Program-made: the position numbers and the translations under genes
NCBI RefSeq assembly: GCF_000003815.2
Contig: NC_049995.1
Location: 13,230,062 to 13,294,061, forward strand
Direction of reading: 5' to 3'
From: Branchiostoma floridae
Taxonomy: Eukaryota; Chordata; Leptocardii; Amphioxiformes; Branchiostomatidae
DNA: 64,000 nt
The notes under the pieces: model-generated
The model's input: only the letters and a program-made list of their open reading frames with translations
Database searches by the model: none
Told to the model about the DNA's origin: nothing
Shown: in pieces, positions 1 to 36,800 of the stretch
Numbering within the stretch: position 1 is the stretch's first letter
Layout of the letters: each line of letters starts with the position of its first letter

Positions 1-199
1 AAACTAAACATTAAACATGTACCTGTGCAATGGTGAGTATCAATTGTTAGCCTCAAACCTTATCCAACGTTGAAAAAAAACTATGCCGTTGTACTGCGGA
101 TTCAATAGACAGCTTTTTATGCAATTAAAGGGAGAAAACCCTTCTTGCATCTTAGTACAACTTTTTAAAGGATTGAGTTTGTGCTGCCGTACCCCTCAC

Positions 200-382
200 A
201 GCATGGCCGTCGAAGTAAAGACCAGTGTCGTTGTCGAATTCTTCGAACATTTCGATCAGGTGGTGGTGTTCCATGTGATTGGGGAACGTTACTGTGTGCA
301 CCACGTACAAGCTGCCATCGAAGAAGCGTGTGATAGCCAGGCTGAGTACTGCTACCAGATGATCCCTGTAGAATTTCCGAAT
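200..382 (-). CDS. Gene 0 SEA domain, second half
   Basis: Continues in phase 0 from 504-616 with IRKFYRDHLVAVL and FFDGSLYVVHTVTF. The Gly-Ser followed by alternating hydrophobic residues sits where SEA domains undergo autoproteolysis (G/S). The 3' limit is uncertain: GTGAGG after position 200 is my best donor, but the frame stays open to a TAA at 152-154. Confidence 0.6.
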
Positions 383-3300
383 CTGGAAACATTTTAAACA
401 GAAACGTGAGTAACATGATAACACGTATTTCCTGTGGCGGTAGTGCTTACTCTTATCGTAAAATGTGAAGAAATATTATATCTGAGAGAAAATATTGACT
501 CACCTCTTTATCGAATCTGTTTGCTAATGTCTGGAAATCCACAGAGGCGCAGTCATCCAGCCCTGGACGCCAGTTTTCGCCGATCACCAACAGCTCGACC
601 TCAAGGGTGTCAGACACTGCAAACCAAACCAGAATAAATTACGTCAATTTTAGAAAAATCTTAGACAATGTGATTTAAACTATTGACTACCTTGTATAAC
701 TATTCACAGGGCAATAAAGCACGATTTTAGGCCGCATTCGTATACTCCTGATCGGTTTAAATGTGTTTATTCTTATAACAGTTTACTGGTTCTCTTGAAG
801 CTGAAATACAGTGCTGCCACCGAGGCTGGTCTACGACAGTCCGCTACCAAACAAATGTCCCTCAGTGCTTTTGATATTTTCCAAAGGAGGATAGGTATAT
901 CATATGTTATATCATATGTATCCTATTGCATCCCCAATTGCGTGCCCAATATCTATTGGTATGTGGTAAACACCTTGTGAATAATACGTGGTGACCAGAA
1001 CAGAAAATGTCTAGTTATCAGTCTCAACAATTACTTTCAGAACTTCCAACAAAAGACATTGAGGAAGACCGAAACTACAAACTACAAAATGGTTCTCGAC
1101 CAGCTGGGGAAATTAGCCTTAAGTAAGCAAAATAAAAAAAACTGGGCCAGAATCACCCTCAGTGAGTTGTGAAGGCTTGCCACTTGGCACGGGAGGATCT
1201 AAGTCTAAGTAACTAGGAATCGAAATCTTAATCACTGACATGGTTCACAGAATGTGCCGTTCCCCCTCCAGCCTCTCCGGCATATGCACTGTCCTTGTCC
1301 TTGACCTTGGCCTTGGATGGAGTCTGCGTGACGACTGCACTGACAAGACACAGCTGTGAACGGTAAACCTGGTCAGTACATCCGTGTGCTGCAATTGTCT
1401 GTCATGACATGTATCATTCGGTATATCTAACACTATATCATCAACCAATAGGAATACAATACTTCGTGCCACTTTAACGAAAACTCATTAGTCCATATTG
1501 TAAAACATACCTTTGCCAAATAAACTAGGTTTGTTATGTAGAATGGTGTCTGTAGACAAATGCGTTACTCATTTCATTTTGTTTTATAATTATATGCTTG
1601 GAGTTGGTTTGTAAAATTTCGGCATTAATTGTGCAAATTTGGTCCCAATTTACAATTAATCAATATCAAATTGTATCAAGCATTGCTTAAGCTATCAGCA
1701 TACCAAGCTATCAGCATACCAAGAATCAATTTCTTGACTTATTCTCTTTCAAAGTCTTTAAATACACCCCTTATACTCTCTTTCCTCTTTCTCAGTTACA
1801 TATATACATGTGACAACGTTGAAACTACTATATAATAATGGAATGCCTCACAGGTCAGGCTGACAGACTGGGTCTCGTCCACGGGGTTGGGAGTAGCGGT
1901 CACTGTCAGCTCGGGGGGATCTGGGGAGAGAACTATACTTTAGGACCTTTGTTTATAGTATATCAAAATCTGGCCCAATATTTTAAAGTACGGTGACTGA
2001 CGTGAAAGCATTCATCCAAGAAAACGCCAAAAGACATTTGTGGACAAGGACATACATTTGTAAAGTACTCCAAACATTGTGTATTCAACTAATACAGTGA
2101 AATAAAATCAGTGTATATACTGATGAAACAAGATTGTTAGCAAGAATTTTACATAGTATGCAGTTTAACCTAGACTTGCATAACTATCATTTCATCTCCA
2201 ATATACAAGAATAGGTCAGAAACCTTTCAAGGTCATTAAAATAACTACCCATCAACTTCGAATAAAGTCAATAGAGAGAGAGGCTGAGGTGACAGCTGAT
2301 GATAATTGTATATCTCTCTACAACTGTAATTGTCAAACCTAATTTCATTGTCATGACATTCATCGCAAGAAACAAAATGGCTCTAAGAGGCAACTGTTGT
2401 GAACAATTTGTAAGGAGCAAGTTGATGACTCAGTTATTACACTACCAAAAATGATTTTGTCTTATTTTGCTTATCCCATGGACAATTCTTGTAGAAGGAA
2501 AAATATTCTTGCAGGAAGAAAATGTAGAAAAAAATTCAAGCAAAACGAGAAACTACAAAAATTATTTTAGACATTTAAGCAAAATCTTCTTATTTTTTCT
2601 TACAATGCAAGAAAAAAATTCTAGAAATTCTTGTTTTTTTCTAACCAGATTCAACTCTTAAGAAATACAAGAATTTTTTTTCTTCCAGGAAGATAAATTT
2701 TCTGTGAGGAAGCAAAACAAGATAAACAAGAAAAGGCATTTTGAGAAATACAAGAAAACAAATCTCAAATTTTCTCAAAAACTTAACAAGAAAAAATTTG
2801 CTTGCCCCATGGACAAGCACATTTTTCTAACATTTCTTAGGGACAGAATAATTTTCTTCCTGGAAGATAAATTTTCTGTGAGGAAGCCAAACAAGATAAA
2901 CAAGAAAAAGCATTTTTGGTAGTGTATACAAAGCAGGACAGCCAGTGATCAGCGTTTTAGTAGACTGCAAGAAGTAATTTAAAAGTTTCAGGAATATTGA
3001 TATTTGTGCAGCGCGAAGACACATGCGGCAGGCTTGTCTGTGTGTGGTAAACTGTCAAAGCTTACAATTCACGATGATCTCCAGTGTTACAGTTTTAGTC
3101 TCAGTTGTGCCCTTTTGATCGCTGAAAGCTTCACAGATGTAGGTGCCAGCACCGCTGCGGTTTACTTGTGGGAAAGTCAGGACATCGCTGTTCCATTCAT
3201 CAGAACTGTTCGTGTTCTGTTTGGTCCACTTGTAACCAGCAGTAGGGTTGGCAACAGCTGAACACATGATGCTGACAGAATCTCCGTCTAACACGGTCAC

Positions 3301-6300
3301 TGGTGAGGTTTGGTTCAGTGTTGGTGTGTCCAGATCTGAGCAGGTTTGTAGATTCCATTAAAGTTATAAATAAGGTTGAACTATAATGATATTTACCTTT
3401 GAATTTCATTTTTTATCTCAAACCTAGAGTCAAATCAAGATATGAATGTCAGTCAAAACCAAGTCCACAACTCACAGAGCACATCCACAGTGCTTGTAGC
3501 TGAGACAGATTGTCCAATGCCGTTGTCAGTTATACAGCTATATGTCCCTGAATGGCTCCTGTCCAGACTTGAGATCTGTAGAAGGTTTCCACTGATAGAA
3601 CCAGCCGGGACAGGACCTGGATGTTTGCTCCATGTGAAGGTGGGAGAGGGGATTGCATCAGCAGTGCAGGTCAGGGTGAGAGGGTCCCCTTCTTTCTCTT
3701 CAGCAGAGATTGGTGTCACAAGTGTGTCTGTTGGTCCATCTAATTGCAGGCAGCCAGAATGCTTATTGTTCATGTCATTGCCATTTCTTTGAAACATTAG
3801 TCTTTTTACATTAGATAGCCAAAAAGGTCATTGTAATAAACTGATCAGACTTCTGGAGATCCTTGCTCACGGACAAGTGTACAAATAATTATATTAGGCC
3901 ACAGCAAGTCAATTTTATGGATGACATCCTCTGCAGACTGCAAAAATAGTGCGATAGGGCAAAAAAAAAGATGGGGGAAAAACAAGGTGGCTACATTTTC
4001 AAAATAGGCACCATAAAGCTGTGATGACTGTTGTTAAAAGAATTAAAGGGACAAAACATGGTATCAGGACCAACAAGGATTTCATTCCTGTATTTAAGAC
4101 ATATACTGGTGTGGCAAAAGTGACACTAGTGTGGTAGACAGGCATCGCAAACAAAGTTGGTAACCACACTCATGGCTTCCATATTGGTGTCACTTTAACA
4201 ACTATCCAATAAGTTTCATTTCTACATCTATAGTCCTGGGTACCTCGCAAGTGTCAATTCTACGAGTACAATTATTAGGCTACAGCACAATATATTTGCT
4301 CATCTTGGTACTTTATCGTCATGTTGACCATCCCTGCAGAAGAAAAAAATTTTTTTTCTTCTGAAATCAGGCGAAAATTGATGCGCGCGCTGATGTTATC
4401 CATAAAGTTTAAAGTGTATTGCCAATCCTTTTCCAAAGCTTGCTTAAAGGCTAACTGTGTGTAAAGCAACCTTAGCTGAGTTTATGAAGCCAATTGGGAA
4501 GATAAGCTACTTATGGATGTGCATCCTACTAAAACCCATTTAATTATCTTTACTTGCATTAGGTATGAATTCAAACGCACAGGTACTAGGTGGCATCATG
4601 TGTATGGGACCGTGCTTCATATCTATCCCAATATGCAGTATTACCAAGAAAGTAAACATAAAACGAGTCTACTCACACTGTACCACCAGACTGAGAGAGT
4701 CCGATCCATCCCCGACCAGGTTTGTAGCCGTACAGGTGTAGTCTCCTGCATCAGTCTTCTCCACACCTGAGATGGTCAGGCTGGGCGTGGTCAGGGTCCC
4801 ACCTGTTGTCCTACCTGCCGTCACAGCTGGGCCGGTCCAGGTGAGCGCAGAGGCTGCTGGGACACCAGGTGAGTCCACAGTACAGGTGAGACTGTGGCTG
4901 GCTGTACCCAACAGTACTGTGGAGGTCGGCTGGGGGGACACGGTTACTGATGGGGCGGCTGGAATAAAGAATGAATCTACATTTGATTTAGCTTTTCTGT
5001 CTACTATAGGGATACTGTCAGCTACACTATTGTTAAACTTATGTTTGTATAACTGCCAAGTTCCGAATAGGAAAACGTTCCGTTTCATCTATAATAATTG
5101 TACAGACATTCTTCATACATTTGGCTGGTCAAAGATGCAAATTCAAACTTACCAAGAGTAGCTGAGCATGTTCTGCCCGGGTTCAGTGCCACACTTGTAG
5201 CTGTACAGGTGTAGGTTGTTCCCTCTGCTGTTACAGGTGCATTCACCTGGTTTACTGACTCCTGTGAAGTCCCAGCCGACTGACCATTCCCGTAAGTCCA
5301 GACCAGGTCCACAGCTGGGTTTCCCCCCTGCAGCTCACATCTCAAGACAACGTTGTTTCCTGACGTGGTCACTGTGCAAACGGGGTTTCCGTCTGGGGGG
5401 TCTGCAGAGGAGAGTTAATATAGCATGGAATTCATAAAATAAACTTTACCGTGGAGCTCTTGACCTTTACTTCTTAAGTATGTGAATTTAACTTAATTGA
5501 TAATTTGATAACTATCGTATTCTTCAGAACAGTTATTATTGTTATTGGTTATTGGGTGGGCCGACAACATACTCTTTGCAGCCAGGGGCTGAATTGCGAG
5601 GAGCTTACAATAGGCGGGGCTAAATCGCAAGGGTCTGGAGCAGCTGCCATTCCGCGCCACTCAGGTGACCTCAATACGACTGTCGTAAGTGTCTGGAGCG
5701 AGCTGCCATTCGGCGCCACTCATGTGACCTCTATACGACAGTAATTGCCCCAGGTGCGGCCAAGGTAACGTAGGTTCTGAACCACTCACAATGCACCATC
5801 GCACGTGTGGCGGGTTCTTTAACGTGCCCGGGGTATGGCTCTCCACAGACACGGGATCTCCATTTAACGTCTTAGCCGAGGGACGGCCTAGCTTCGGCTA
5901 GGTACTCATTTTTTATCTGAGTAAAGTGAGGAAAGTCGTGTAAAGTGCCTTTCCCAAGGGCACAAGATCGGTAGCACGGCAGCCGGATTTGAACCAACCA
6001 CCTCTCGGTCACGGGCCGAACACACTGTCGCTGCGCTACGTGGTCCCACTAACAGTGCCCACAAAAGGTTCAGACGGCCATTTACACCGTTACTATTAAC
6101 TGTAATGCTAATAAGTCTCTACCAGACCCTTTACAGAACTTACATTGAACATCCACCACCAGTTGTGCTGAAGTTGAACATGCATTTGTTGCCGTGCAAG
6201 TGTACGTCCCTGCATCGCTCTGTGTGACAGGGTTCTTCCTCAGTGTTGCTCCTGCTGGTTCCCTAGTTCCATCTTTACTCCACTGTAAGGTGGGGGAGGC

Positions 6301-8570
6301 TGGGTCAGAGGTCACACTACACACAACACTCAGGTCATCGCCCTCTACTATAGTCACTGGGCTGCTGGGGGTCAGCTGGGGGGTACCTAGGTCTGTGGGT
6401 AAGAGACAAAGTTGCTGATTAAACATCATTCAGAAATGATGTACCGGTATTATACTTAGTCTATTTGCAGCAGTTGGGGCATGTCAAGGTCTGTGGGCAG
6501 GAGGAAATTGAGCAGATTAAACATGATTTTAAGAACGGGGTGTTACAGTAGTATAGTATTTGGATAATTAGCCCCCAATTTCTTTGAAAGAATCTATTAA
6601 CTTGAAAATATTGAAATAAGGTCTTGAGTTGCGTTGCACCATCTATGTTATTGAGATAGCCTACAGTCTATGTTGCACTCACAGTTCACGCCCAGAGTCT
6701 CCCCACTGCTTGTCTGTGCATAGTCCGCACCCAGCACATTGGAGACAGTACAGGTGTAAGTCCCCGCTGGGTCCTGTCTACATCAGACAGAGTCAGCTGC
6801 GTACTGCCTGTTGCCAGCTGGGTGAACCACGTGGAAGGTGTAGGTGAAGGGTGTGGTTCCTGACGCCACACTACAGGTCAGCTGGACATCCTGGTTCTCG
6901 TTTTCACAGGTGGGGTTAGGGCTCATGGACAGGGTCGGGGTGCCGGGGGAATCTAGGGGGTGGGGTGTGTGTGGTCATATATAAGCGTCAAATTCACATT
7001 GTAATGACAACAGAAACTAACGGTAATATATTGATGTGCCTTCAACCTTTAAGCCACTAGATAGATACTGATTTGTTAAAAACACATGCAAGGAATGCAA
7101 AGCAAGCAGAAATTTTCCAAAGAAAACATGGTGAAGACTTAGAAAATGATTACCAACTACTTGCAGCTCAGGCTCCACCATTTCTGTAATACTGAAGTCA
7201 CTCAAAGTAGCCTGACAGCTGTACATCCCATCGTCAGCCTGTGTTACTCGCTCAAGCAGGAGGAACCCGGTATCGTTGACTGAAGCCCGTCCTGTGTAGG
7301 CTGGACCTGCCGTTGATGTTCCTATGAGGTATTCAGCAACAACGACAACAGGTGATCCCTGTTTCCTCCATGTTGCTGTCCTTAGAGTCAAACTTCCAGT
7401 CAGGGTGACTCCACAGGACAGAGCAGACGTGCTTCCTGTCTGGATGTACACCACGGAGGCTACAGTATTGCATAAAAATGTGGTTCATGGTTATGATGCA
7501 CTTTGATATTGTCTAACATCTGCCTAGATATAATTGTATTAGGATTTTGCGCATTGAAGAAAAAAAACAACCTTCCACCTAATCAACCTAAAGCTGAGGG
7601 TAAATGTTTTAGTTTAATCTATTTGCGATCATTCTTTACAGCCTATTCAACTTTCAATAGCATTTTTCAAATTGTAGAAAGATTTATCGCGCTGAAATAC
7701 ATTCCAAACTACTTATCTCAATAAGTAAAGATGAAATGATGATCATTTAGCTTTAAGGACACTAAAATAACAAAGATTGGGGACTTACAGTATCTACTTC
7801 TGAAGTTTTGCGTACATGACAGCAGTCAAAACTCTTAAATCTTACATCTTGAATTTCAAATTGTATGCTTAAATGAAACAATGCATGTTTTGCATTTCCC
7901 TTTATGTTTAACGATCTAACGAGCTACATTTGAAAAATACTATTTGAGTCAGACGTTTACGTGAAAATTTTAACATACAGCTTTATGTTGATTGCTAAAA
8001 TAATGACTATATCTAATACTGGTTTGAATATTTTTTGGGAATATGAAGGAAATGAGAACGACGTTTTTTTTGTAGAACTTAAGCAACTATTTGATATCAT
8101 GTTTCATCAACTATCTAACAAGCAGCAATGAGGATTGTGGGTAACTGATCTTGTTCAGGTCAACGTGACAAGTATCAAAGAAACGCAATATAACGTTACG
8201 TATAAACACACGAGTAGAAATGTATGCACAGAAATAACAACAACGTCGAAACCTTTGCCTTACCTGTTACCCAAATGCCAGGGGCACTTTTAACAACCCC
8301 TAAATTACATTTTTCTGCGTAGTTTCCAATCAATATTCAAAATATGATATATGCTAAGAATTTACTCATGCATGGTGTCGGTATGTCTTATTACATGTAC
8401 TTCCTGTATAGGTTTAGGTGGGTCTATTAATGCAGTAACCAATGTCTGTAAAAAGTTAACCTATGTTTTTGTTAAATCAATAGATGTGGCATACCTTGAA
8501 CAAGTCCTGTAGACAAAAGGAATCCACAAACAAGTCCAAAAAGTAACACGTCACCGTTTTGAGGTATCAT
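200..8570 (-). CDS. Gene 0: Ig-EGF-SEA membrane receptor, 3' end outside window
   Basis: Multi-exon gene read right to left. Coding exons I can join: 8495-8570 (signal peptide), 7154-7459, 6683-6952, 6144-6392, 5153-5401, 4677-4958, 3476-3739, 3066-3335 (Ig domains), 1852-1920 (Ig relic), 1240-1353 (EGF-like), 504-616 and about 200-382 (SEA). Every Ig exon starts with two codon bases and ends with one, so all junctions agree in phase. Gene A is its closest relative for the first five ectodomain exons, so an RTK-type 3' half beyond the left edge is likely but not visible. The membrane-proximal part differs: EGF plus SEA here, Ig-FN3-SEA in A. Exon 6683-6952 carries two frameshifts and 1852-1920 is truncated, so this may be a decaying gene or one relying on exon skipping. 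The joins are my inference from splice consensus and phase. Confidence 0.72.
504..616 (-). CDS. Gene 0 SEA domain, first half
   Basis: Encodes LEVELLVIGENWRPGL, then DD.ASVDFQTLANRFDKE, the pattern of the first strand and helix of SEA domains. Acceptor TTTGCAG, donor GTGAGT, and the exon ends on a full codon, as gene A and B SEA exon 1 also do. Confidence 0.7.
1240..1353 (-). CDS. Gene 0 EGF-like domain exon
   Basis: Reads VSCQCSRHADS, a Gly-Gln repeat, then CICRRGWRGNGTFC, the C.C..GW.G.G..C pattern of EGF-like domains. Five cysteines are visible; the one expected after HAD is Ser, so one disulphide may be missing. The exon starts with two codon bases after CACAG and ends with one before GTCAGT, matching its neighbours. 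Acceptor choice is uncertain. Confidence 0.6.
1852..1920 (-). pseudogene. Relic 5' end of an Ig exon
   Basis: After a normal acceptor the exon reads [13 protein letters not shown], then ETQSVSLTC, matching the start of gene A exon 18682-18957. Homology stops at the B-strand Cys codon; the rest of the domain (core Trp, F-strand Cys) is missing. The TGT of that Cys sits in TGTGAGG, so a cryptic GTGAGG donor there would give a 69-base phase-compatible mini-exon. Whether it is spliced is unknown. Confidence 0.7.
2440..2934. mobile_element. TA-flanked MITE with CACTACCAAAAATG terminal repeats
   Basis: Inverted ends CACTACCAAAAATG and CATTTTTGGTAGTG are each bordered by TA, the Tc1/mariner-type target duplication. 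The very AT-rich interior holds a direct repeat of about 55 bases (2692-2747 and 2861-2916). Lies in the gene 0 intron between exons 3066-3335 and 1852-1920. Confidence 0.75.
3066..3335 (-). CDS. Gene 0 C2-like Ig domain exon
   Basis: Ig core seen as SVSIMCSA, YKWTKQN and GAGTYICEA. Phase 1-1 exon, donor GTAAGC. No direct counterpart in gene A; gene B exon 37760-38047 shares the ending style (VTLEI.VNC). Confidence 0.86.
3476..3739 (-). CDS. Gene 0 C2-like Ig domain exon
   Basis: Encodes an Ig fold with LTLTCTA, FTWSKHPG and DRSHSGTYSC. Phase 1-1, acceptor CAATTAG, donor GTGAGT. Gene A has no counterpart in this position, so this domain was gained here or lost in A. Confidence 0.87.
4677..4958 (-). 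CDS. Gene 0 C2-like Ig domain exon, nearly identical to gene A copy
   Basis: Ig core Cys-Trp-Cys visible as HSLTCTV, LTWTGP and DAGDYTC. The 282-base exon matches gene A exon 19199-19480 with only a few amino-acid differences (for example VEKTD versus VLKTD), far closer than the other paired exons. Flanking introns do not look alike. Confidence 0.9.
5153..5401 (-). CDS. Gene 0 C2-like Ig domain exon
   Basis: Contains VLRCEL, DLVWTYG and TTYTCTATS, a complete Ig core. Same length (249 bases) and phase as gene A exon 19923-20171, with only scattered substitutions between the two. The acceptor follows CTCTGCAG and the donor is GTAAGT. Confidence 0.88.
5560..6052 (-). mobile_element. tRNA-derived SINE (minus copy)
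   Basis: On the minus strand it begins with a tRNA-like head: an A-box-like TAGCGCAGCGAC and a B-box GGTTCAAATCC, followed by TGCCCTTGGGAAAGGCAC. It shares head, body and tail (GATTTAGCCCCGCCT) with the plus-strand copy at 27017-27410. A roughly 65-base stretch near its tail (AGCTGCCATTC...ACGAC) is tandemly repeated only in this copy. Located in a gene 0 intron. Confidence 0.8.
6144..6392 (-). CDS. Gene 0 C2-like Ig domain exon
   Basis: Reads [19 protein letters not shown], then LQWSK and SDAGTYTC, the B-strand Cys, core Trp and F-strand Cys of an Ig fold. Phase 1-1 exon with AG acceptor and GTAAGT donor. Close paralogue of gene A exon 20410-20673, but lacks a short Gly/Ser-rich insert that A has before the last strand. 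Confidence 0.87.
6683..6952 (-). pseudogene. Gene 0 Ig exon with two internal frameshifts
   Basis: Clearly the counterpart of gene A exon 20972-21247 ([24 protein letters not shown]). After TFH, near 6825-6832, the homologous reading continues in a different frame (WFTQLATG, QLTLSDVDRT). Near 6766-6771 it returns to the first frame ([11 protein letters not shown]-like). The exon is six bases shorter than its paralogue, so the net frame is kept, but the original frame meets TGA at 6783-6785. Splice sites look intact. Two sequencing errors, a pseudoexon, or a skipped exon are all possible. Confidence 0.8.
7154..7459 (-). CDS. Gene 0 V-like Ig domain exon
   Basis: Single-domain exon with the B-strand Cys (ALSC), the core Trp (TATWRK) and the F-strand motif DDGMYSC. 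It is the orthologous position to gene A exon 27716-28009 and shares its segments TLTG.LTLRT and TGFLLL. Here the reading frame stays open through the donor (ELQVV), at the point where the gene A copy has a stop. Confidence 0.85.
8495..8570 (-). CDS. Gene 0 exon 1: start codon and signal peptide
   Basis: ATG at 8570 opens a 25-codon exon: a short polar start (MIPQNGD) followed by a hydrophobic run ending near STGLVQ, then a GT donor after one base of the next codon. The layout and sequence match gene A exon 1 at 28575-28650, which supports both the start choice and the shared origin. It targets the product to the secretory pathway. Confidence 0.85.
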
Positions 8571-8700
8571 GTTGGGTTGTTGACGGCGGAGTCAGCGATA
8601 ATCTTTATGTGATTACTTCCGGGTAGAGTATTTGTGGACGCCGATTACGTACAATCCTACGAGTAACATTCGTCCACGCCAAAAGTGGATGACAGGCGCT
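8571..8700 (-). promoter_or_regulatory. Gene 0 5' flank conserved with gene A
   Basis: Immediately upstream of the ATG, segments such as ATTTGTGGACGCC and GTAACATTCGTCCAC recur in the same order upstream of gene A (28651-28770). An ETS-type site (ACCCGGAAGT read on the gene strand, 8615-8624) is present. No TATA box is evident. Start-site position is unknown. Confidence 0.5.
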
Positions 8701-12281: not shown

Positions 12282-12356
12282 TTAGTACTTCTCGTCCGAG
12301 GCGGTTTGCAGACTTGTGTAGGTGTTCTCATCCAGACTAGCCAGGTTGATATAGTC
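12282..12356 (-). CDS. Gene A last exon: ITAM-like cytoplasmic tail and stop
   Basis: Begins after a TTGCCCAG acceptor with [16 protein letters not shown] and ends DEKY then TAA at 12282-12284. With Glu three residues before the first Tyr (from the previous exon), it fits (D/E)xxYxxL-x7-YxxL. YINL also fits the Grb2-type pYxN motif. The gene B tail differs by only one residue here (YSSL for YTSL). Confidence 0.9.
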   Translation of the reverse strand, partial: DYINLASLDENTYTSLQTASDEKY

Positions 12357-15300
12357 CTGGGCAAGGGGAAAAGGGGAAACCTAAGAAAGATATCTGAGTG
12401 AAATCAAACATGAAATATTCTAGGAAAGTTAGATTATTATGGCAGTGCACTCAATACATGATTTTGTATTATGACAAAAAATTGATTTTAATATATGACA
12501 ATTTTCAAAATGATTACCATTGGCTAAATTTCAATCTGTGTGGACTATCAGGTTACATACTGTCAATAGAGATTACTATTTCTAAAATTCTGTAGTAAAC
12601 CACTTTCTACAAAACTATTTCATTCACAGCCTTTGATATGGCCAATCTTTTACTGTCAAGGCAGTGGACACGAATGAGCGATTACACTCACATGTTCAGT
12701 CTCCATGAGTGAGTCCAGGGTCCGCTGGATCTTCCGGAACTCTGGTCTCCGGGAGGGATCAGCATCCCAGCAGTTCATCATCAGGGTGTAGCTAGAACAG
12801 TGTGATTCGTGTAACAAGTTTAAATCTTATGTTCATACACAGCATTTGACTAAGGAAAGCAGTACTAGTTTTGTCGCTATTTTGCCATGCACCTCATTCT
12901 ACATTAAGTATGAGATAAGTCCGCAAAGAATGAAGTGGTAATATTGTGTGTGTGGCTATATTTTCTCGCTAAAGAATATTATGAGAAAGAAGAAACCAAT
13001 CTCACTTTAACAAGTATTTCGACTTACAGTTTCTCATCACAGTGCTTTGGCTTGTCCATCCTGTATCCCTGCTGAACTCCGTCCATCACGCCTCGTTTGG
13101 ACATACCGGGGTACGGGGTGGCACCTAGGGGGAAACAAACATCATGAGTTGTATGTCCCTCCTGAATCGCACTTTTGCAAAGTGTAATGGCCAAAGTCTT
13201 TCAACAGAGACCAGGTTATTCTTTTTTAATTAATGTAAATATTAAGTAGGTAACCTACTTTGTTATTATGGTTGGCTTTGTATGAACAATAACTTTCAAT
13301 GGAATCATATGAACCCACCCAGTGTGACGATCTCCCAGAGCAGCACTCCAAAGGCCCAGACGTCCGTCTTGGTGGTGTACTTCCGGTGGAACAGCGACTC
13401 GGGGGCCATCCAGCGGATAGGCAGGCGGGTCTGGTGTAATATATACAATGGATAAATGCCAATATCGGCGAAGCTATACTTAACACTGGGTTTTCAAACA
13501 ATAAACAGAAACAAAAACTATCAAACCAAATCCTCATTAAAAATAAAGTACAGGTTTCCCGATCAATTGACTAAATTTGATTTTACACCTGCTCCTTGTA
13601 GACATAAATCATATCAACTGATGTCCACAGCATACTGTTGGATAGCTCTAAGACAAATGTTAAATTCTTGAAAAGTGAAGTCTGCAATAAAAACCTTAGT
13701 GGTCCTTTCGTACTCATCCCCCTCCCGTGAGAAGCCGAAGTCTGACACCTTACAGGTCCGGTCTGCAGACACAAGAACGTTCCGGGTCGCTAGGTCACGG
13801 TGGAGGATCTGTATAATAGTATGTATTAAAATGATAACAACTATTATACCGGGGATTGAAAAGTTAATTTTGTCTTACACGTCTTTCGCTTACATTAAAA
13901 ACATCAAAAAGAACTGAACAACAGTGAGTCATCATCGGGTATCTGGCCTATTTGCGACCAGAACGCGACATCTGTGTCAAAGGAGCTAAGAAGTCGGTAC
14001 CTTCCGCTGCCCTTATTCATATAGGGTTGGTTATATGTTATGTAGTCAGTGTGATCAAAGTAAGTATTTGTTGCAATCCACGTTTACCACTCACCTTCTT
14101 CGCTGACAGAAAGCTCATCCCCTTGGCCACGTCCCAGGCGAACTTGGTGAGGTCACGTGAGGAGAGGGACTTGCTGCCGCCGTGTAAGTTCCCGTATGTT
14201 TGCTGGGTGCGGCTGGTGCGGAGGTTGGACTGGAGACTCCCTCCGGAAACGTACTCAAGCAGCAGGTAGAACGGATCTGAGGATACAAGCAAACTGATTT
14301 AAATAATGTGTCAAGTACTTATTATGTAAAAGCAACGGTTTGTTTTAGGAAGGGTGGATCAAAAATTTCGTTTTTTTTCATTATTCCAGTATCAGGTTAC
14401 TTTACTGAAGGAGAATTTTTGGAACTAACCTGCATCTGTGCAGCAGCCCAGAAACAACACAACATTTGGATGCTCTCCAAGGAGCTTCAATACTGAGAGT
14501 TCCTTGAAGAAAGCAGGACTTGTCACAGCTGAAAATTAACAATCAACGCTGTAAGTAGGCGTCTCAGTTTTCTGCAAATGTAATCTTACTGTAGCCTGTG
14601 TTTACACAATCTCTCGCTGGCTGGGGTTAATGACCAATTGTAGGGCCGGCCGCTAGGGGCGCTATTTTAGTCAGACTAGATCTTACTGCATCAGTTAGAC
14701 AACGTGTCTATTCTCGCTACATCGCTTTGTATAAACAGAATGCACATCCCACACACTAGATATCAATAAGAAAGTAATAAAACGTAGGGGTATGTTTGTA
14801 AGTGAAATGTGCCGTAAATTAAAGCGACGATGACCGCATTTGTCGTAGGTGAATAATCGTGTGCACCATCAATGAAACCACGTGTCCGCAATTTGAAAAA
14901 AAAAAAAGTTCACCTTTCATTGACTTGACGGCGACCACTGTTACGCCTTCATGCCCGGACAAGTTCCAGGCTTCAGCTCTATGGACGCTTCCAAACTCTC
15001 CGTGTCCGAGTTCCTCTTTGATGGCTAGCTGGCTTCGAGGGAATTCCGATGTCTTCAAATCTTCGTAAGCAGATTCATCTGGAATCTGCATTTCATTCAA
15101 ATATATCAAATATAGTACATCCGGTTAGATCTGATATACTCAATCCAATACTGTTAACCTATATCGTGTCTTTTCAGCGAATGGAATTCACACTCACATA
15201 CAAACACGGGAACCCACACAAATATATGCTTGTGTGACTGCGTGTTGTGTGTGTGTGTTTGTGTGAGTGTGCGCACGTAAGTGCATAAAGTTATCAAAGG

Positions 15301-18300
15301 AAAATTGATCAGGAGAAATGAAGTGGTTACCTTATTTTCACCACGTGGCATTAAACCCTGATACGTGTGGTCAGACTGTAAAGGAAAACAAAACGTTATG
15401 CTGGAATGTATAGGTATAACTTGCAGAAAGGTTGAATTTGCCAATTACAGATGTATAAAAGTTACTGTTTACAGTAATAGATGTGAAAAGTGTCAAATAT
15501 CCTTTACACAAATAATTGCAACTTGAGTTGTTTATGCACTAGGTTATAACAGTTGCAAAATGACATCTGTTAAGATCTTGTAATAAACGGAATATAAGAA
15601 CAAAAAGCAGATTACAAAGCATGTTTATATGGAAATGCTGTAAATTTACCTTTCGCCTATGGGAAATCCTCAAACTTTGATACGCATCGCCAGAATCAGT
15701 CGTCTAGGAAAACAGAGCAGTACGTTTACGGTTGATTCTCATTGATTGCATATTTACTCTATTTGTTTAGCTGCTGTGCATGCAAATCCGATGGGATAGT
15801 CATGCTGATAAAATAAAGAAAACGTCAAAACAATGAAGATTTACACAAGGATGATTCAAACTGATCTATAAATCTCTAACTCGTACTATAACTTAGATAC
15901 ATGCATGGGTAATCACTTACAACATCTTCCAATTCCAGGCTTTTGGGAGTGTTGGTAGCAGCTTTATCTGAAACACAGGGTTAGATTATCATTATCATTA
16001 TCAGAATGTGATCACAAAATGAAAGTGGTACACAATTTTCATATAGAGTGCAAGGTTTCCACCAGACAAGGTCAGCACAGGGTTTCAGTAGATCTATAGC
16101 TATAGAAGCGTTGAATGATGTTACGGAGAGCTTTCATGCTTGCTTTTGTTATCCTTATCTCATTAAACAGCTATATACTCACCGCGGCTTGTTCGTCTTC
16201 TCACGAGAAATATGACGGCGACAATTACAGCTATCAGCACAACACTGACCACCACAGCTATGATGATGACAGTGGTTGAATCTCTCATGCCGACTAAGAA
16301 AAAAAGGCATTTGATAACAATCATTAAGCAACCCAAATGACAATTTGACCTGCCCTCACGGAGTAATTAAGGAGTAAATTGAAGTTCACTTCATGACTTC
16401 TTTTACGATAATTTTCATTTGTTTTTAGAGTGGGAAACAAATTACAACTAAAGGCTCGCCACTGACAGAAGTTAGAGAATTATATACAAGACCGATACAT
16501 ACGGGATATATACACATACTATTTCTAGGTCTTTTCAATCATGATAAGAAGTAACAAATCTCGCCTGTACTTTGGGTGTCACTGATCCTACTGCTCAAAA
16601 GATCCACAGTGAACTCCCCCAGCTGTCCATCTGCCAGTTCCTGAGTGTACGAAGTCTGGGCTGCAGCCGACTCAGACTGGGCCACAATGGCCTGAAAATC
16701 TGCAAGGACGCTGCCGGATCTGACAAAAGAAATGGGATATTACGACTTTGACCAAACATTTAACGAGATTCTTGTGACCCTCGATATATATTACTCTAAT
16801 GGCTGCAAGAAATGAAACAATTACAATGGGTATGACACCCAAATTAATCCAAAAGTACCCAGAGCTACAATCAATCTATCAATAGGCGATATTCTAAAGA
16901 AGGTTGAAGCATCCACCTGCATCCGGTGACTTCTGCCCCTTCATAGCCTTTGTAGCTGTCAAATATAGAGTCCAGCTAGAGAGAAAAAGAGAAATAAGAG
17001 ACATTAACAAATATGTACATGCGACTTTTTAGCACAACATTCATTGAGTCAGCTTAAAGATGTCCTTATATGCATGGTTTCGACATGTGTTTCAATAAGT
17101 TTTATGGGAATACTCAGACAAACCTGAGTCACTACACGGTTAGAAAGCTCTCCGTCACAAATCCCCTCGGTGTAATCAACACTGGCGATGGCTAAGGTTC
17201 CATACAGGATCTGGTTTTCTAAGGGAAAAATGAATGATAGTATAACCAAGAAAGTCCAACCCTATGAAAGCTCAGAGCAAAAGTGCCAAAAGAAAACGGA
17301 TGCCCAAAGCAAATGTTAAATGCTACAAAAATGCTTTTAGTTGAGTTCACAAGCGTCTTGAAGCCTATCGATACAAACAAGTCAAACAAGGATAAGCAAT
17401 GATTCCGGTGCGATAAAGATTTTCGACATCACAAAAGACATGACTTATTTGTTACACACCTTCCACGAGAACCTGGATGACATTTGACCCCACAGCTCCC
17501 TGGCTGTTCTGTGCCCGGATGCGGATTTCGTACTGTCCCTTCTCAGACAACTCCAGAGTCTGGGTAAACTCAGGTCTGTTCTGTGAAACCGCCTCCACTA
17601 CTGATGGCCCGCTGACCCAGTCTGTAGTGGCTTCCAGCCTGTACTGTACAGTGTGGGTCGTCTCCAGTCCACCGTTAAACCCCGCTGTCCATGTCAAGGT
17701 GACCACGCCTGCCGCTGTCTTTTTGGTGTAATCCAGATTATTGGGCGCCTCTGGTTGGGCTGAGTTTGTATCAACAGGTAAGCAGGTAACAATTAAAAGC
17801 TACATCGCTTAGATACTGCTTGTCAAGCTGGATTCTATGCAATTATAATGTAAATATCAAGCAATCAATTACAAATCAAGAAAGAATTTATACTGCACTT
17901 CGTGTGAACATAATCCACTTACATTCCTCCGCCAATTGAATAACAGTAGATCGTTGTCCATGTCCATTCCTGGCTTTACATGTGTAGTCCCCATAGTTTT
18001 CCCTCTCTACACTTGCTATGTACAGTGTGCTGACTCCATCCTGGCTGGTGGCATTACCAGTGATGTCATATCCACCCTTCATCCACGTGTAGACTATCTG
18101 TGGCGGGTAGGCGAAGGCAGAACACTCCAGTGTGACAGGCTGGGATGTTTGAATGACGTAAACTTCTCTTGTGTGGTTGAAGATTGGAACAACTGAAGGA
18201 ATAATGTGAAAAAGAAAAATGACTGAATTAAGAAGCTTAGCTGAAACTTATAACGGAATTGTACATGGAAGTAACGTAAATCAAGTTACTTGCGATTGTA

Positions 18301-21300
18301 TACTCCTACCATTACACGAGAAAGACTTTATCTAGCGCAACCTAGTTTATGTCGTCACAGGAAACCAGGCTAAGTAGAGAAGATGGCCCAATACTGGCTG
18401 AATATTATGCAAATGATGACATAATTTGGATGAATAATAATGGTCGTCAATAACACGGTAAATGTATTTCGGCGAAGGTAGTAGAACTGTAGTTATTGTT
18501 GAAAAACTATTTTTCAGCAAAAATGAATAGATAGATAACATTATTATGTATAAAGGTATTTTTCATGCTTAAATGCTCTGTGCATGGACTAGATTTATTG
18601 ACCTATCTAACCAGCATAGTGCCTTTTTAGTGGGTGACAAATGAAATTATTTGAAACTTAGTTGAAGATATATATACTTACAGTTGACATTAAGGGCCTG
18701 GTCTTTGTCCACGGGTGATCCCACCACACCATTGTCAACTGTACATCTGTAGACTCCTGCATTTTCATGGCTCACAGAACTGCTGGTGTAGGTGAGAGAG
18801 TTTCCTGTAGTCTGCTGTATCAGAGTTTCTCCTGTCTCCACAAACACCCACGTCATGGAGGTGACGCCAGGGTTACTGTCTGCTGTACAGGTCAGGCTGA
18901 CGGACTGGGTCTCGTTCACGGGGTTAGGGGTAGCGGTTACGGTCAGCTCTGGAGGGTCTAGGGGAATACATTCATTTTGAGGCTTCATTGCATAAGGATA
19001 AAAGGGCACAAAACTGAATGAAAATCAATAATAAGTATGGGTGAACGATTAGCTGTGGAATGGGATTAAATACCACTTGTTAATTGTTCACCTTTCATGA
19101 CAACACTTGACTGTATACTTGTTTGTCGCTTAAGGTATCAAGTCTTCTACTAAGTATTGATCGTCGCCAAAACAGTAACGGAAAACAAGCATACTCACAG
19201 TGCACCACCAGACTGAGAGAGTCCGATCCATCCCCGACCAGGTTCGTAGCAGTGCAGGTGTAGTCTCCTGCGTCAGTCTTCAGCACACCTGAGATGGTCA
19301 GACTGGGCGTGGTCAGGGTCCCACCTGTTGTCCTACCTGCCGTCACAGCTGGGCCGGTCCAGGTGAGCGCAGAGGCTGCTGGGACACCAGGTGAGTCCAC
19401 AGTACAAGTGAGACTGTGACTGGCCGTACCCAGCAGGACTGTGGAGGTCGGCTGGGGAGACACTGTCACTGATGGGGCGGCTGGGGTAGACAACAATACT
19501 GTAAATGTATTTAAGTTCGCGGGGATTTAATTTCGCGGTAGCGGGAAAAGGGACTTTTCGCGGTAACACCATAGACTGCAATCTAATACTATAATAGAAA
19601 AATGTTCGCGGTGGTTTTAAGTTCGCGGTGAAGTGGTTACCGCGAAAACCGCGAACATTAATCCACCGCGAACATTTCTGCATTTACAGTATACTTTTTT
19701 TCACCATAACATAATTATGTACAACATGTTCTAACTACGTTGTATGTATATTTTACATAAAGTATATATCTTGCAGCAGTAAAATTGAAAGACAGTAACA
19801 TGTATGAGAAAGTGATATCAAATATTACACACTTCCTGATAAAATGTAATGACAGAAGTGCAACAAACATCATTTCTTTCTACAACCGAGTAGTAGCCAT
19901 CAAACTAAAAAAAAAAACTTACTGAGGGTAACGGAGCAGGTCCCTCCCGGATTCAGTGCCACACTTGTAGCTGTACAGGTGTAAGTTGTTCCATCAGCTG
20001 TTACAGGTGCGTTCACCTGGTTCACAGACATTTGTGAGGTCCCAGCCTGCTGACCACTCCCGTATGTCCAGACCAGGTCCACAGCTGGGTTTCCCCCCTG
20101 TAGCTCACATCTCAGGACAATGTTGTTTCCTGATTCAGTCACTGTGCAGGTGGGGGTTTCGTCTGGGGGGTCTGAGAGTAGGTATAGGGAGGTAAAGTTG
20201 ATCTAATTTGATTTTCATAACCTGTACTTGTGTATCGCTTGACCTTCCTTTTCAAACTGAAGTACGAGAATTATTTTCCTATTATAAAACTCAGTATTAC
20301 ATGGTTGCACAGATTATCTTGAAATATACATAATGACTATCAAAATCTTAGATGAACTACTAAAATGTCTCTATAGGCAGCAGATTCAGCTACAAATATC
20401 CCTACTTACATTGTACCTCCACCACCACTTGTGCTGAAGATGACCTTGACCCTGTTCCACACGTGTTTGTTGCTGTACAAGTGTACGTCCCTGCATCACT
20501 CCGACTGACAGGGGTTTTCCTCAGTGTTGCTCCTGTTGGTTCATCATTTCCACCTCTACCCCACTGTAAGGTGGGCGAGGCTGGGTCAGAGGTCACACTA
20601 CACACAACACTCAGGTCATCGCCCTCTACTACAGTCACTGGGCTACTGGGGGTCAGATGGGGGGTGTCAAGATCTGAAGGCAAGACAAAAAGCGTTGGGA
20701 ACAAAATTAAAAGCATTATTTTGCAATTAGTCTGGATTTGTGACTTAGTAATGGTTTTTACTTAATTGTTTCCAATATGTGGCTGATACGTTGAATGTAG
20801 GATGCAGTGTAAGCTCTCCAAACTTCTATGCTTGCAGTTCTTTGCATATTTAAATAGTGCTTTACGAAAGTTTACAAGTCTATCAACAGCCATGCTTCTA
20901 TTCACAAAAGTAAATGAAAGCATGCATAAAAATCTTCTTGTGTTGTATTTTCGAGTCTGTGTTGTACTTACAATGTACCACCACTGACTGTTCACTGCTT
21001 GTCTGTGAATAGTCTGGACCCAGCACATTGGAGACAGTACAGGTGTACGTTCCTGCATGAACTCTGTCAACATTACGCAGAGTCAGGCTGGCGGAACCAT
21101 CTGATGCCAGTTGTGTGTCTTCGCGGTGGAAGGTGTAGGTGAAGGGTGTAGTTCCTGACGTCACAGTACAGGTCAGCTGGACATCCTGGTTTTGTGTCTC
21201 ACACACTTGGGTTGGGCTCAGAGACAGGGTTGGGGTACCGGGGGGATCTGTAAGATTGCGCAGAATAACAAGAGTCATACTTCCTTGAAATGGATTTAAT

Positions 21301-30607: not shown

Positions 30608-30682
30608 TTAGTACTTCTCGTCCGAGGCGGTTTGCAGACTTGAGTAGGTGTTCTCATCCAGACTAGCCAAGTTGATGTAGTC
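30608..30682 (-). CDS. Gene B last exon: ITAM-like tail and stop
   Basis: [16 protein letters not shown] then DEKY and TAA (30608-30610). With EDD before it, the motif E-x-x-Y-x-x-L-x7-Y-x-x-L is conserved with gene A. Confidence 0.9.
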   Translation of the reverse strand, partial: DYINLASLDENTYSSLQTASDEKY

Positions 30683-33600
30683 CTGGGCAAGGGGAAAAGG
30701 GGAAACCTAAGAAAGATATCTGAGTGAAATCAAACATGAAATATTCTAGGAAAGTTAGATTATTATGGTAGTGCACTCAATACATGATTTTGTATTATGA
30801 CAAAAAATTGATTTTCATATATGACAATTTTCAAAATGATTGCCATTGGCTAAATTTCAATCTGTGTGGACTATCAAGTTACATACTGTCAATAGAGATC
30901 ACTATTTCTAAAATTCTGCAGTAAACCACTTTCTACAAAACTATTTCATTCACAGCCTTTGATATGGCCAATCGATTACTGTCAAGGCAGTGGACACGAA
31001 TGATCGATTACACTCACATCTTCAGTCTCCATCAGTGAATCCAGAGTCCGGTGGATCTTCTGGAACTCTGGTCTCCGGGCGGGGTCAGCATCCCAGCAGT
31101 TCATCATCAGGGTGTAGCTATATGTAGAACAGTGTGATTCGTGCAACAAGCCTGAATCTTATGTTTGTATGTAGCATTTGGTTATCACAAAGCAGTGTAG
31201 TTATTATTTTGCAACTCATTCTATGAAAGAAGTCCGGCACCAATTGCCTAATTTTCTCGCTAGCTATTCTTCCTGTTTTTGCATGACTCATAAAACATTT
31301 CTTTCGTTTTATTATGCAAAAGAACCATGCATTAGAAAGCAACTAGACTCACAGTTTGCTATCGCAGTGTTTGGGTTTGTCCATCCTGTATCCCTGCTGA
31401 ACTCCGTCCATCACTTCTCGTTTGGACATGCCGGGGTACGGAGTCGCACCTGGTGGAAAAACATAAATATAAAAATAATTATTGTTCTTTATCATTCCTT
31501 GGTATACATTAGTCATCAAATTGATAAAGTCGCCAATGCTACCTTTGCTGATTTTCTCTTTATTTTCTATTGTCAACGGGTCGCACAACAATGAAACAAA
31601 CTGTCCCTCTCAATTAAATAATGGCTTAACTGGCGGTTATTTTTGTAAGGGGCTTCATTACAAGAATCAAACTCATGAACGCACCAAGTGTGACGATCTC
31701 CCAGAGCAGCACTCCGAAGGCCCAGACGTCCGTCTTTGTGGTGTACTTCCGGTGGAACAGCGACTCGGGGGCCATCCAGCGGATAGGTAGGCGGGTCTGT
31801 AGCAGGTTTATACAATGAAATAGTAATGACGAAGAAACTATATTGAAAACGGGATGAACGAACTTGTCATTTGAAAAATCATTTGACTAAACCTGATCTA
31901 AAGTTAAAGTCATTCTTTGTTAACAAGTATTAACTGAATTATCTATAACAGAAAAGCTTGATTTGGGGCAACTGAGAACTACCTTTGTGGTCCTCTCGTA
32001 CTCATCCCCCTCCCGTGAGAAGCCGAAGTCTGACACCTTACAGGTCCGGTTTGCAGAGACAAGCACGTTTCGGGTCGCCAGGTCACGGTGGATAATCTGA
32101 AATCACAATGAATAAAAAGATATCAATGTCAGTTAACCTGTATAGTACAGATTCATAGCTGAATAATTACAAGTAAAACTTATGGTTGTTGGTTAATCTT
32201 CATAAAATGACCTAACCCACTCACGTCTAGACCGTGACGTATAGAGTGGTTTGTAGAAGCCGAAACGCCGAAACAACCCGTCGTCGACGTCGTGGTTCAT
32301 GTGAGGCTAATTCATTCTAATGTAGTCAATACGACTGTGATTATTGTACGCCACTTCGCAATACGTAGTCCCTACTCACCTTCTTCGCTGACAGAAAGCT
32401 CATCCCCTTGGCCACGTCCCAGGCGAACTTGGTGAGGTCCCGTGATGAGAGGGACTTGCTGCCGCCGTGTAAGTTCCCGTATGTTTGCTGGGTGCGGCTG
32501 GTGCGGAGGTTGGACTGGAGACTTCCTCCGGACACGTACTCAAGCAGCAGGTAAAACGGGTCTAGAGACATTACTTACAAAAGTATGACACTATGAAGCA
32601 ATCCCAGGAATAGATTATCCAAAATACAGTGGAAGTTATAGCGGAACAAGTGTTCCTCATTAGAAGACGTCTTTTCAAGGACTATGAATGGATGAACAAT
32701 TTCTTCAACATAAACATGTTTATATGTCTGAGTTTACAAAGCTGTAAGACTTTCCCACCCACCTGCACCCGTACAGCATCCGAGAAACGACACAACGTTG
32801 GGGTGTGTCCCGAGGAGCTTCAGGACTGACAACTCCTTGAAGAAAGCAGTTGAAGAAGCAGGGCCTGTCATACCTGAGGAGTTAGTAATCGTTGATAGAA
32901 TGTAAATTAGACTATCTATAAGCAAAGGAATGTAAGAAAATACAAATTTAGATATTGAATGTAAATATTTAACATATTGCATGTGCTGTAATCAACATAA
33001 ATCACACAGTCTTTTAGAAAAAAATTCTTTTCAATAAAGTGCTAGGATTACCTTTCAACTCCTTCACAGCCACAGTTGTTACACCTGTGTTTCCTGATAT
33101 TTTCCAGGCTTCAGCCTTATAGACACTTCCGAACTCCCCTTGCCCAAGTTCCTCTTTGATGTCTAGTTGATTCCGCGGGAATTCCGACTGTGTCTTCACA
33201 TCTTCATATGTTGCATCTGGTGATGTCTGTATCAACAGCAAGATCTGTTAGTAAAATATATTCTTGTATACGTCATGCAATTCATGAAAATATAGATGAT
33301 ACATCGTACGCGTGTAATAGATAAGAATAGTATATGAAATACACTCCTTGTTAAACACTGACGAATATATAATACCTCATTCCCACTTCGTGCCATCAGC
33401 CCTTGGTACGTGTGATCAGACTAAATTGATACAGAAACAGAAAATATTAGAAATACAAACAAGGCTTGCTTCCAAAAGCCAAGAACAATCAACACTTCGA
33501 AAGCCTGACATAAGTAAATTTTACATTCAAAAACATTTGAAGCTATTATATATACACACATATATATATACCTTGTTAGAGTAAATAACAAAGCATATAT

Positions 33601-33836
33601 CTAGTACTGTGTATTGCTCTACCTACCGTCCGTCTATTAGGTATCTTTAAACTTTGGTATCCGCCATCCGTATCGTCGCGCTGGAAGACGAACACAATCA
33701 TCAAATAAATGCTGATTGATTTTTCATTCATTAGTAAAATACATGGCCATTCTCCAGTCCTATATGTATAGATGTGCCCTTGGATAAAGAAGTATGCAAT
33801 TTTTACTTCCTTGAAAGAAGTATGTATGTATGTATG

Positions 33837-33867
<31 letters not shown>

Positions 33868-36800
33868 GGAAGTAGATATGATAAAACATAAAATGATATT
33901 CGCTTACCACACGGTCCAGCTCTATGTTATTTTGATGATTTTGGCCAGGTTTTTCTGAAATAGCATTCATATGTAGTTGATTAGATTCTAGAAACAAATC
34001 TTGTGACATATATAAGAAACATTTGAACAAGAAAATCAAAGAAAAAATAGATTGTACACTCACTATTGGCTGATTTCCATCTCCTAAAAACAAACACTCC
34101 AACACCAATGATAGCTAGGAAGACAACCCCACACACTACTGCTGCGATGATGATGATGGTTGCGGTGCTGTCTCCATCTACTGTAAGGGAACAGGAAATC
34201 TTCGGATTAAAACAGCAATTGTGACAACTCTGTGATGACGATTACAGTGGTGTAATAAGGGCTGAAATACATTTTTCAGTTTCAATAAATATATACATTA
34301 AATGTTACAGTATCTTGTTATCAAATACTATTTTCTTAAAACTAATGAAATACTTAAGGGTTAATGACCCGCCCCGAGGTGTATATGGTGTCATAACGCC
34401 TGGTCCTTTACTATAACCACAGAAATTCGAATAAAACCACCGATGTGAGCGAAGCGAACGAGGTGGTTTTATGAGGTGGTTATAGCAAAGGACCAGGCGT
34501 TATGACACCATGTACACCGAGGAACAGGCGGGTCATTAACGTTATTATCATATAGCCTACCCAAACTTGCAATATCCTGTATGACGCATAGATCCCTTCT
34601 ATACGTGTGAATTCCTTTGTACTATACGTGTGAATTTCTGAAAATTCACATTTGTTCTTTGATACATGCATATGTAAGGAGATTACAGATTGCATTTTGA
34701 AAACAAAATTTCCACAGAAAATATTCGAAACATTGCAGGCTTTTTAGAACAACAAAACTCATTATCAGGAGCCATTCCCCCTTGCAGTCAGTACTTATTC
34801 CCTCGGCTCTGGCATGTTTCGCTCCTGTTTATTGGTCAATGCCTGCATATACCTCACTTTCTTGTGTGTATCACTACTTTTGATTGGTCAGAATGAATCG
34901 ACGGTGTCGATTTGCATAGACACTGGTGCCGGTGTCGATGCAAGTCGATTCATTCTGACCAATCAGAGGAGCGATACACACCTGCCTGGCCTGAATCTTT
35001 GTGTTACGGCGTCATAACTAACGTGGAACGGGGACATCTGATTGGTCCGCGGGGCCTTGCTATATGATAATATGTTTTAAAGCAAAGATTGTTAGTGGCA
35101 TTCATCAAATCGTAAACACTGAAAATGCATATTCTTATCACAAATGTCATATCATATTGAACTATGCAAGGGGTTGAAAACTCATATATTTTTCCTTTAT
35201 ATTTCATATGTTCCTTGGGGATGATACGATCCGTTCAAAACGATTTATAAAAGAAGAAAACATAATGTCTATTACCAGACGGCTGTTAATCACTAATACC
35301 GCTTACCAGGAGGCCTCGTGACAGAAATTTGTGAGCTCTCCTTGACCACAGTAAGATCTCCCACACTGCCTGTGTTGACCTGTGTCTCGAAAGCTTCTAT
35401 AGCTGCCTGCGTTTCTGACTCGGCCACCACTGCCTCAAAGTCTCCTACTACACTGCCCTGGCTGTGGATTGGAATCGGGACCCAGCTCATCATAGATTCA
35501 ATGGCATTTTACAAAATGATAATATATAATCAGGAAACAAGTGAATGCAAATTGCTACCTTACCTAAACTGTGTTATGGTCGCACCCTCATATCCAATTA
35601 GAGAGCTGAAAACTTTGTCCAACTGTTAAAAGAAAGAAAGAGTATCACCATTATTGCGTTCTTCCCCCGGATATGATACATGATATATCAGTTAATTATC
35701 ATATTTTCTTCATATATATGACAAAAGGCTTAATATATAGGGCATACATTATGTAAATATCCATTATATACAATAGGGAAAACAAAACAAAACCAAAGAA
35801 ATGTGTAACGGTATTTCAATATTAAGACAAGTCTTAAAAGCCTTTTTAAAATGAGACAAAAAAGGAAATAAAATAATAAAGCAGGAATAAAAAGTTTAAG
35901 CCTTCCGACTCACATTTCTCTCCCACAAGGCTTTCTTTTGTCGAAATTCAGTTGACTCGCTGTCTTTCAATGCCTCCACCCAGTTTTCATTCGTTGTCAT
36001 CCTTCCAGACAGGTGTTGGCTTGCTGTAAGAAACATCTAACTTGACTTTATATTGCAGTTTTGTCGCGTCGAATGTTACAATGCTTTGGCATCTTTTATA
36101 TTCAATAATAAAATGCAGAAACAATATAGAGCCAACGTGCTTGATAAGATCATTGTATATTTTCCTCTTGTGAACAAAAAGGTGACAAGAAATGTTTTCC
36201 ATGTATTCCATGTACCTTCCAGTTTCAGATCCACAGACTCAGACCATGCCTCCCCCTGTGTGTTCCTGGCATTTATTCTGATCTGATAGTCCCCAGCCTG
36301 CTGTGCCTTCAGGTCGAGTGTAATGTTGAACGTACGACGCTGCTCAGATGCAGTTTGTTGACGACTCCCCACATCTTCCCATTGATCTGCCCCTACCTCT
36401 CTCAGCTGCACTATGTGAGCTGTGTCCAGACCACCGTTAAAATCTGCTGTCCAGGCGATGCGAACTACAAACTGTGTATTCTTGGACAGGACTATAAGTC
36501 CACTGGGGGTTCCAGGGGGTCCTGGGGAAATACACGAGGTTTGAAATAAGTTGTGACAACAGGATGATGATGGAATTCATTTTTCATCAATACTGTTAAA
36601 GATAAAGTGTAATAACATAGAAGACGTTCCATAACTATGACCATTATTCAATGAAATCTTACCGAGTGGTTGAAGGGTCCTGGTAGTTGATGACGACCCT
36701 TTGATATTGGCTGCCGTACAGTTGTACGTCCCATAGTCTACTTGTTCCACACCAATGATGGTGAGGACCGAGGTTTCTCTTGAAGACTGGATGTTGAGCC

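Follow-up and report, generated by a model that had tools for sequence, protein, structure and literature searches.

Paired YxxL tyrosines in an expanded lancelet family of Ig-domain receptor tyrosine kinases, and their possible coupling to SYK

CD3, Ig-alpha/beta, FcR-gamma and DAP12 are ITAM receptors or adaptors, and to our knowledge such classical ITAM chains have no kinase domain. Tyrosine kinases are said to have undergone an expansion in the lancelet (reportedly D'Aniello et al., 2008), and our guess is that the receptor family described here is probably part of it. Fly Draper and mouse Megf10 are also counted among ITAM receptors (PMC8092387), and the hemITAM of CLEC-2, Dectin-1 and DNGR-1 has the consensus DGYxxL (PMC3819593). 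Invertebrate SYK/ZAP-70 homologues are described as co-occurring with CARD-CC/Bcl10, and ancient ITAM receptors upstream of SYK have been proposed on the basis of that co-evolution (PMC5978004). Among the literature titles and abstract openings listed there was no description of a lancelet or other invertebrate receptor tyrosine kinase with an ITAM, which is not proof of novelty. In amphioxus a CEACAM homologue was looked for and not found (PMC3628338), a point without bearing on kinases.

We analysed a stretch of 64,000 nucleotides of Branchiostoma floridae DNA (C17:13230062-13294061 of a 513-Mb assembly; the window) containing two receptor tyrosine kinase genes, A and B. With the ITAM receptors and adaptors they share paired YxxL/I tyrosines at x6-8, in most members an acidic residue at -3, a single-pass receptor and a SYK-type partner in the genome; they differ in that a single chain carries motif and kinase together, the motif lying directly behind the kinase. 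With the hemITAM receptors six of the eight family members scored, though not A and B themselves, share a juxtamembrane DGYxxL; the family differs in that its members are not C-type lectins, the chain bears a kinase and a second YxxL follows. FGFR- and RET-type kinases resemble the family in the kinase domain itself (FGFR1 and RET chains rank near the top of its PDB matches), in the Ig ectodomain and in a tail tyrosine at the position of FGFR1 EYLDLS. Unlike them, the chain ends about two dozen residues past the kinase with YxxL-x7-YxxL, has a cluster of YxxL sites in the juxtamembrane region and carries six Ig domains and a weak FN3 next to the membrane. The two genes are members of an expanded group of such Ig-domain kinases with conserved paired YxxL tyrosines, and we regard it as about an even prospect that these tyrosines serve as SYK-coupled paired docking sites.

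Exon anatomy of genes A and B

The exons of gene A, in window coordinates, are as follows.

12282..12356, minus strand: last coding exon (Tyr codons 12351-12353 and 12318-12320; Leu codons 12342-12344 and 12309-12311)
12692..12791, minus strand: penultimate exon, end of the kinase C-lobe, ...LMETEH (Glu at -3, codon 12695-12697)
13028..14276, minus strand: kinase exons 14095-14276 (insert), 13695-13808 (HRD/DFG), 13319-13430 (APE) and 13028-13124; Pfam PF07714
14430..14528, minus strand: kinase N-lobe exon
14914..15085, minus strand: juxtamembrane YEDL and kinase start (glycine loop, VAVK)
15331..15375, minus strand: juxtamembrane exon SDHTYQGL
15650..15703, minus strand: juxtamembrane exon DSGDAYQSL (hemITAM-like position)
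16183..16293, minus strand: transmembrane exon
17460..21250 (approximate limits), minus strand: membrane-near ectodomain exons, six Ig and one sub-threshold FN3 (open segments, Pfam)

Gene B has the same layout, its tail lying 18 kb from that of gene A.

30608..30682, minus strand: last coding exon
31018..31117, minus strand: penultimate exon, ...LMETED
31353..32873, minus strand: kinase exons
33052..33226, minus strand: juxtamembrane YEDV and kinase start
33376..33420, minus strand: juxtamembrane SDHTYQGL
33627..33680, minus strand: juxtamembrane DGGYQSL
34064..34180, minus strand: transmembrane exon

When the exon at 12692-12791 (donor gtgagt) is spliced to that at 12282-12356 (acceptor ccag), the tail of gene A reads E-H-D-Y-I-N-L, then seven residues, then Y-T-S-L. 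This satisfies (D/E)xxYxx(L/I)-x6-8-Yxx(L/I), with the acid at -3, YINL, x7 and YTSL. Gene B carries the same motif with the acid at -3 present and YSSL as its second half. Since scanning all six frames of the window without splicing gave no match to the strict rule, the motif of gene A exists solely across the exon junction. The junction itself is likely to be the correct one. Both genes have another AG in frame, 24 bases upstream of the last exon; splicing there would add eight residues and cost the motif its acid at -3. However, in six other copies (L039, L040, L041, L042, L059 and L061) the acceptor stands exactly at this GAC codon, and L009 and L010, the intronless copies on C16, read straight through with no such insert, for which reasons the upstream acceptor was set aside.

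The kinase of gene A scores 295.6 bits against Pfam PK_Tyr_Ser-Thr (PF07714) and has the usual catalytic motifs, including APE, so that the usual ITAM-chain trait of being without a kinase of its own, which is not strictly defining, is absent. At the sequence level, A and B each encode a transmembrane segment and a tyrosine kinase with catalytic motifs, as expected of receptor tyrosine kinases. The membrane-near ectodomain of gene A represents open segments joined by hand rather than base-by-base splicing, and more Ig exons lie upstream. The sequence-only reading had placed an ITAM with x7 spacing across the last junction of gene A, on one chain with a complete kinase under Ig domains; the exon anatomy and the Pfam matches bear it out on both counts.

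The distal ectodomain exons are less regular. Set against the exon of the neighbouring gene, the V-set exon of gene A (~27726-28016) shows an in-frame stop close to its end, and to judge by the neighbouring phases its skipping might keep the frame. In gene B comparison with a nearby copy reveals a 13-base deletion in the V-set exon (~42275-42589). Upstream of it (window 45609-46600) is a copy without the deletion, which has a signal-peptide-like exon to itself, perhaps an alternative first-exon pair. The broken-looking distal exons of A and B may be skipped, or may mark alleles without a full-length protein; despite them, kinases and tails are conserved across the family.

Elsewhere in the window, positions 54800-58900 hold what by eye look like broken fragments of LINE-type reverse transcriptase on both strands. 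Positions 59900-62750 hold open segments with several hydrophobic stretches, suggesting a gene for a small multi-pass membrane protein.

Paired tyrosines across the family

Searching the genome with the kinase insert exon gave 18 matches: 14 close copies at 77-100% identity and four distant ones at 37-53%. Tails were read in 12 of the 14 close copies, the other two being those at C10:3.13 Mb, where no tail was found within a further 1000 bases, and at C17:12.26 Mb. YI[ND]L-x7-YxxL is kept in all 12, so the conservation of both tyrosines and of their spacing that had been proposed as a check holds among the paralogues of this one genome. In the alignment of these tails eight of 24 columns are invariant, and the four of the motif are all among them (treating the columns as interchangeable gives p = 0.0066, a rough value only since Tyr and Leu tend to be conserved anyway). 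A third tyrosine near the C-terminus is Cys in the two C16 copies, the most diverged. The residue at +2 of the first tail tyrosine is Asn in seven tails and Asp in five, a variation that led us to reject docking of Grb2 alone as the conserved constraint. Of the 11 members in which the junction could be read, 10 have the acid at -3, L009 being the exception; this tally joins seven of the eight members first scored to three further junctions (L059, L061 and L062/L068) and leaves out L069, for which a search did not turn up the exon before the last.

Comparing the C16 copies with the other members gives a tail pS of 0.62-0.76 and a pN of 0.19-0.27 (seven of the eight members; L041, called member E, was omitted, as was the first block of the juxtamembrane region). 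Since this synonymous change is large, the motif has outlasted strong divergence. L009 and L010, at C16:16614139-16620060, have open frames and no introns in the cytoplasmic part and are apparently retrocopies of the multi-exon family.

Ig exons are also present at the left end of the window (1-8577), next to kinase exons at C17:13224500-13227311 (L059, L051), and are probably part of a third gene of the family, with its kinase and ITAM tail just outside the window. The 24 tail residues encoded at C17:13224500-13227311 are identical to those of gene A. In the gene at C17:13.35 Mb (L040 6600-9000, L046) several kb separate the juxtamembrane exons, resembling an inserted mobile element.

Three juxtamembrane tyrosines, spread over three small exons, are present in all eight members scored (the exons of member E were taken from L043, which adjoins L041). 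The sites are YQSL (YESL in the gene of L040), YQGL and YED[LV] (YDYV in L010). The first fits DGYxxL in six of the eight, the others being gene A (DAYQSL) and gene B (GGYQSL); the juxtamembrane exons of L051 and L055 read DDGYQSL and NDGYQSL. A hemITAM has a single YxxL, on a dimeric receptor that SYK bridges, but here a second follows, at x11 in seven members (outside x6-8) and at x7 in the intronless L010. Because its spacing is seven, the juxtamembrane region of L010 is a strict ITAM (EDGYQSL-x7-YQGL) in addition to the tail motif. These hemITAM-like tyrosines, missed by the sequence-only reading, are arguably as telling as the tail.

Shuffling the 28-residue tail gave the strict motif in 0.13% and a relaxed motif in 0.6% of shuffles, and all three juxtamembrane tyrosines of gene A fell within YxxL/I in 0.13%, these being tests picked after the motif had been seen. 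None of the 28 non-family kinase ORFs scored in this genome has a tandem YxxL in the part of its juxtamembrane region or tail that was examined, a contrast that is neither independent nor random since 21 of the 26 non-family rows of the kinase tree form one clade. In all 30 kinase ORFs were scored, the other two being the family members L002 and L003; L039-L042 and repeated ORFs were omitted, and no ORF was found in L001 or L013. The tail cut used clipped the family motif itself in L002 and L003, and among the 28 non-family tails left 5-13 residues in 26 and 0 in two (L004 and L007). Where an ORF is short (e.g. L004, L038), its juxtamembrane stretch may fall outside it. In the tree (33 rows, seven family and 26 other ORFs, all from this genome, with L001, L004, L013, L036 and L038 dropped) the family groups apart, subject to a long-branch warning.

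A SYK-type partner and competing explanations

The Arg of the FLVR-type strand is the phosphotyrosine-binding residue of SH2 domains. A SYK tandem-SH2 query matched C15:6243570-6243917 with E 7.9e-21 (N-SH2 and linker, residues 3-118 of the query). A second match, at C15:6245073-6245231 (C-SH2; E 5.7e-4), lies 1.2 kb further on. Four other SH2 exons (on C12, C2, C5 and C8) outscored the C15 C-SH2 exon but fell below the N-SH2 exon. The C15 pair was chosen because its halves are in order, on one strand and 1.2 kb apart, and because against the PDB both find SYK first and ZAP-70 next (1.9e-42 and 7.8e-39 for the first exon, 1.9e-11 and 4.9e-8 for the second). Both retain the Arg (YLLRES, YSIRERD). 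The host Syk/ZAP-70-like partner that the earlier reading presupposed has a candidate counterpart in a SYK-type tandem SH2 coding sequence of the same genome, and SYK-coupled signalling by the tail ITAM is plausible.

It is possible, though in our view somewhat doubtful, that the tyrosines are ordinary receptor tyrosine kinase docks, the first tail tyrosine being an FGFR-type PLC-gamma site (or a Grb2 site, YxN), the second unrelated, the ITAM spacing incidental and a tandem-SH2 partner unnecessary. In the PDB search the query aligned past the kinase end into FGFR1 ..NQEYLDLS, at a low-confidence alignment end, with ..EHDYINLA opposite, so that EYLDLS and YINL occupy the same post-kinase place. 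Among the best 60 of 810 PDB matches, the first row was an EGFR entry counted over two stretches, and FGFR1, RET and other FGFRs came next. We take the aligned FGFR1 tyrosine to be Y766. FGFR1 Y766 is described as a dock for PLC-gamma (PMC8156822), and the YINL-type site fits pYxN in the seven tails with Asn at +2. Since the first tail tyrosine aligns with the FGFR1 tail tyrosine, half of the motif may be an inherited receptor tyrosine kinase dock, and its history may have been one of an inherited docking tyrosine joined later by a second YxxL at fixed spacing. Ordinary docking does not account, however, for the Asp that replaces Asn in the other five tails, for the invariance of the second YxxL at x7 or for the further YxxL pair in the juxtamembrane region.

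Sorting signals of the YxxPhi type are common in cytoplasmic tails, and by inspection the tail and juxtamembrane tetrapeptides of A and B match them. Yet it is improbable that these tetrapeptides serve, unphosphorylated, in adaptor-mediated endocytosis, which predicts neither the invariant x7 pair nor the acids before the tyrosines, and the sites flank an active-looking tyrosine kinase.

Very improbable is an ITIM-like inhibitory receptor that recruits SHP-type phosphatases. The juxtamembrane YED[LV]-type site fits (I/V/L/S)xYxx(L/V/I) in A, C, L009 and L010 because S or V stands at -2, but by inspection the tail tyrosines do not: in all 12 tails the -2 residue of the second is N, D or T, and that of the first is H, D, N, G or Y wherever the preceding residues were read (11 tails, L069 excepted). 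Finally, it is scarcely credible that the motif arose by chance in a tail that was then duplicated and has no docking function, for although the motif is short and recent copies are nearly identical, the strict motif is rare in shuffles (just 0.13%) and its four columns are invariant in 12 copies that include highly diverged ones.

A proposed one-chain ITAM receptor

In the SYK-coupled reading, the Ig ectodomains would be clustered by ligand, and the receptor's own kinase, perhaps together with Src-type kinases, would phosphorylate the paired tyrosines. A SYK-type tandem-SH2 kinase, putatively encoded in the same genome, would then dock on the doubly phosphorylated pair. Such a receptor would be an ITAM receptor on one chain, for which a kinase-less adaptor would be unnecessary. 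We further propose, tentatively and as something short of an even prospect, that the copies constitute a multigene family of self-contained ITAM receptors, in which an Ig sensor, a kinase, a tail ITAM and a juxtamembrane hemITAM or ITAM on one chain feed the invertebrate SYK pathway. The receptors of this family may have an immune role.

Vertebrate antigen and Fc receptors divide sensing, ITAM and kinase among several proteins, and a receptor tyrosine kinase with an ITAM would be a different solution. The ITAM and the hemITAM-like site have been retained through extensive gene duplication. The family also offers candidates for the ancient receptors proposed to act above invertebrate SYK (PMC5978004). 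If the copies are indeed self-contained ITAM receptors, they would show that a receptor tyrosine kinase can incorporate the switch of immune receptors, with the Src-family kinases bypassed.
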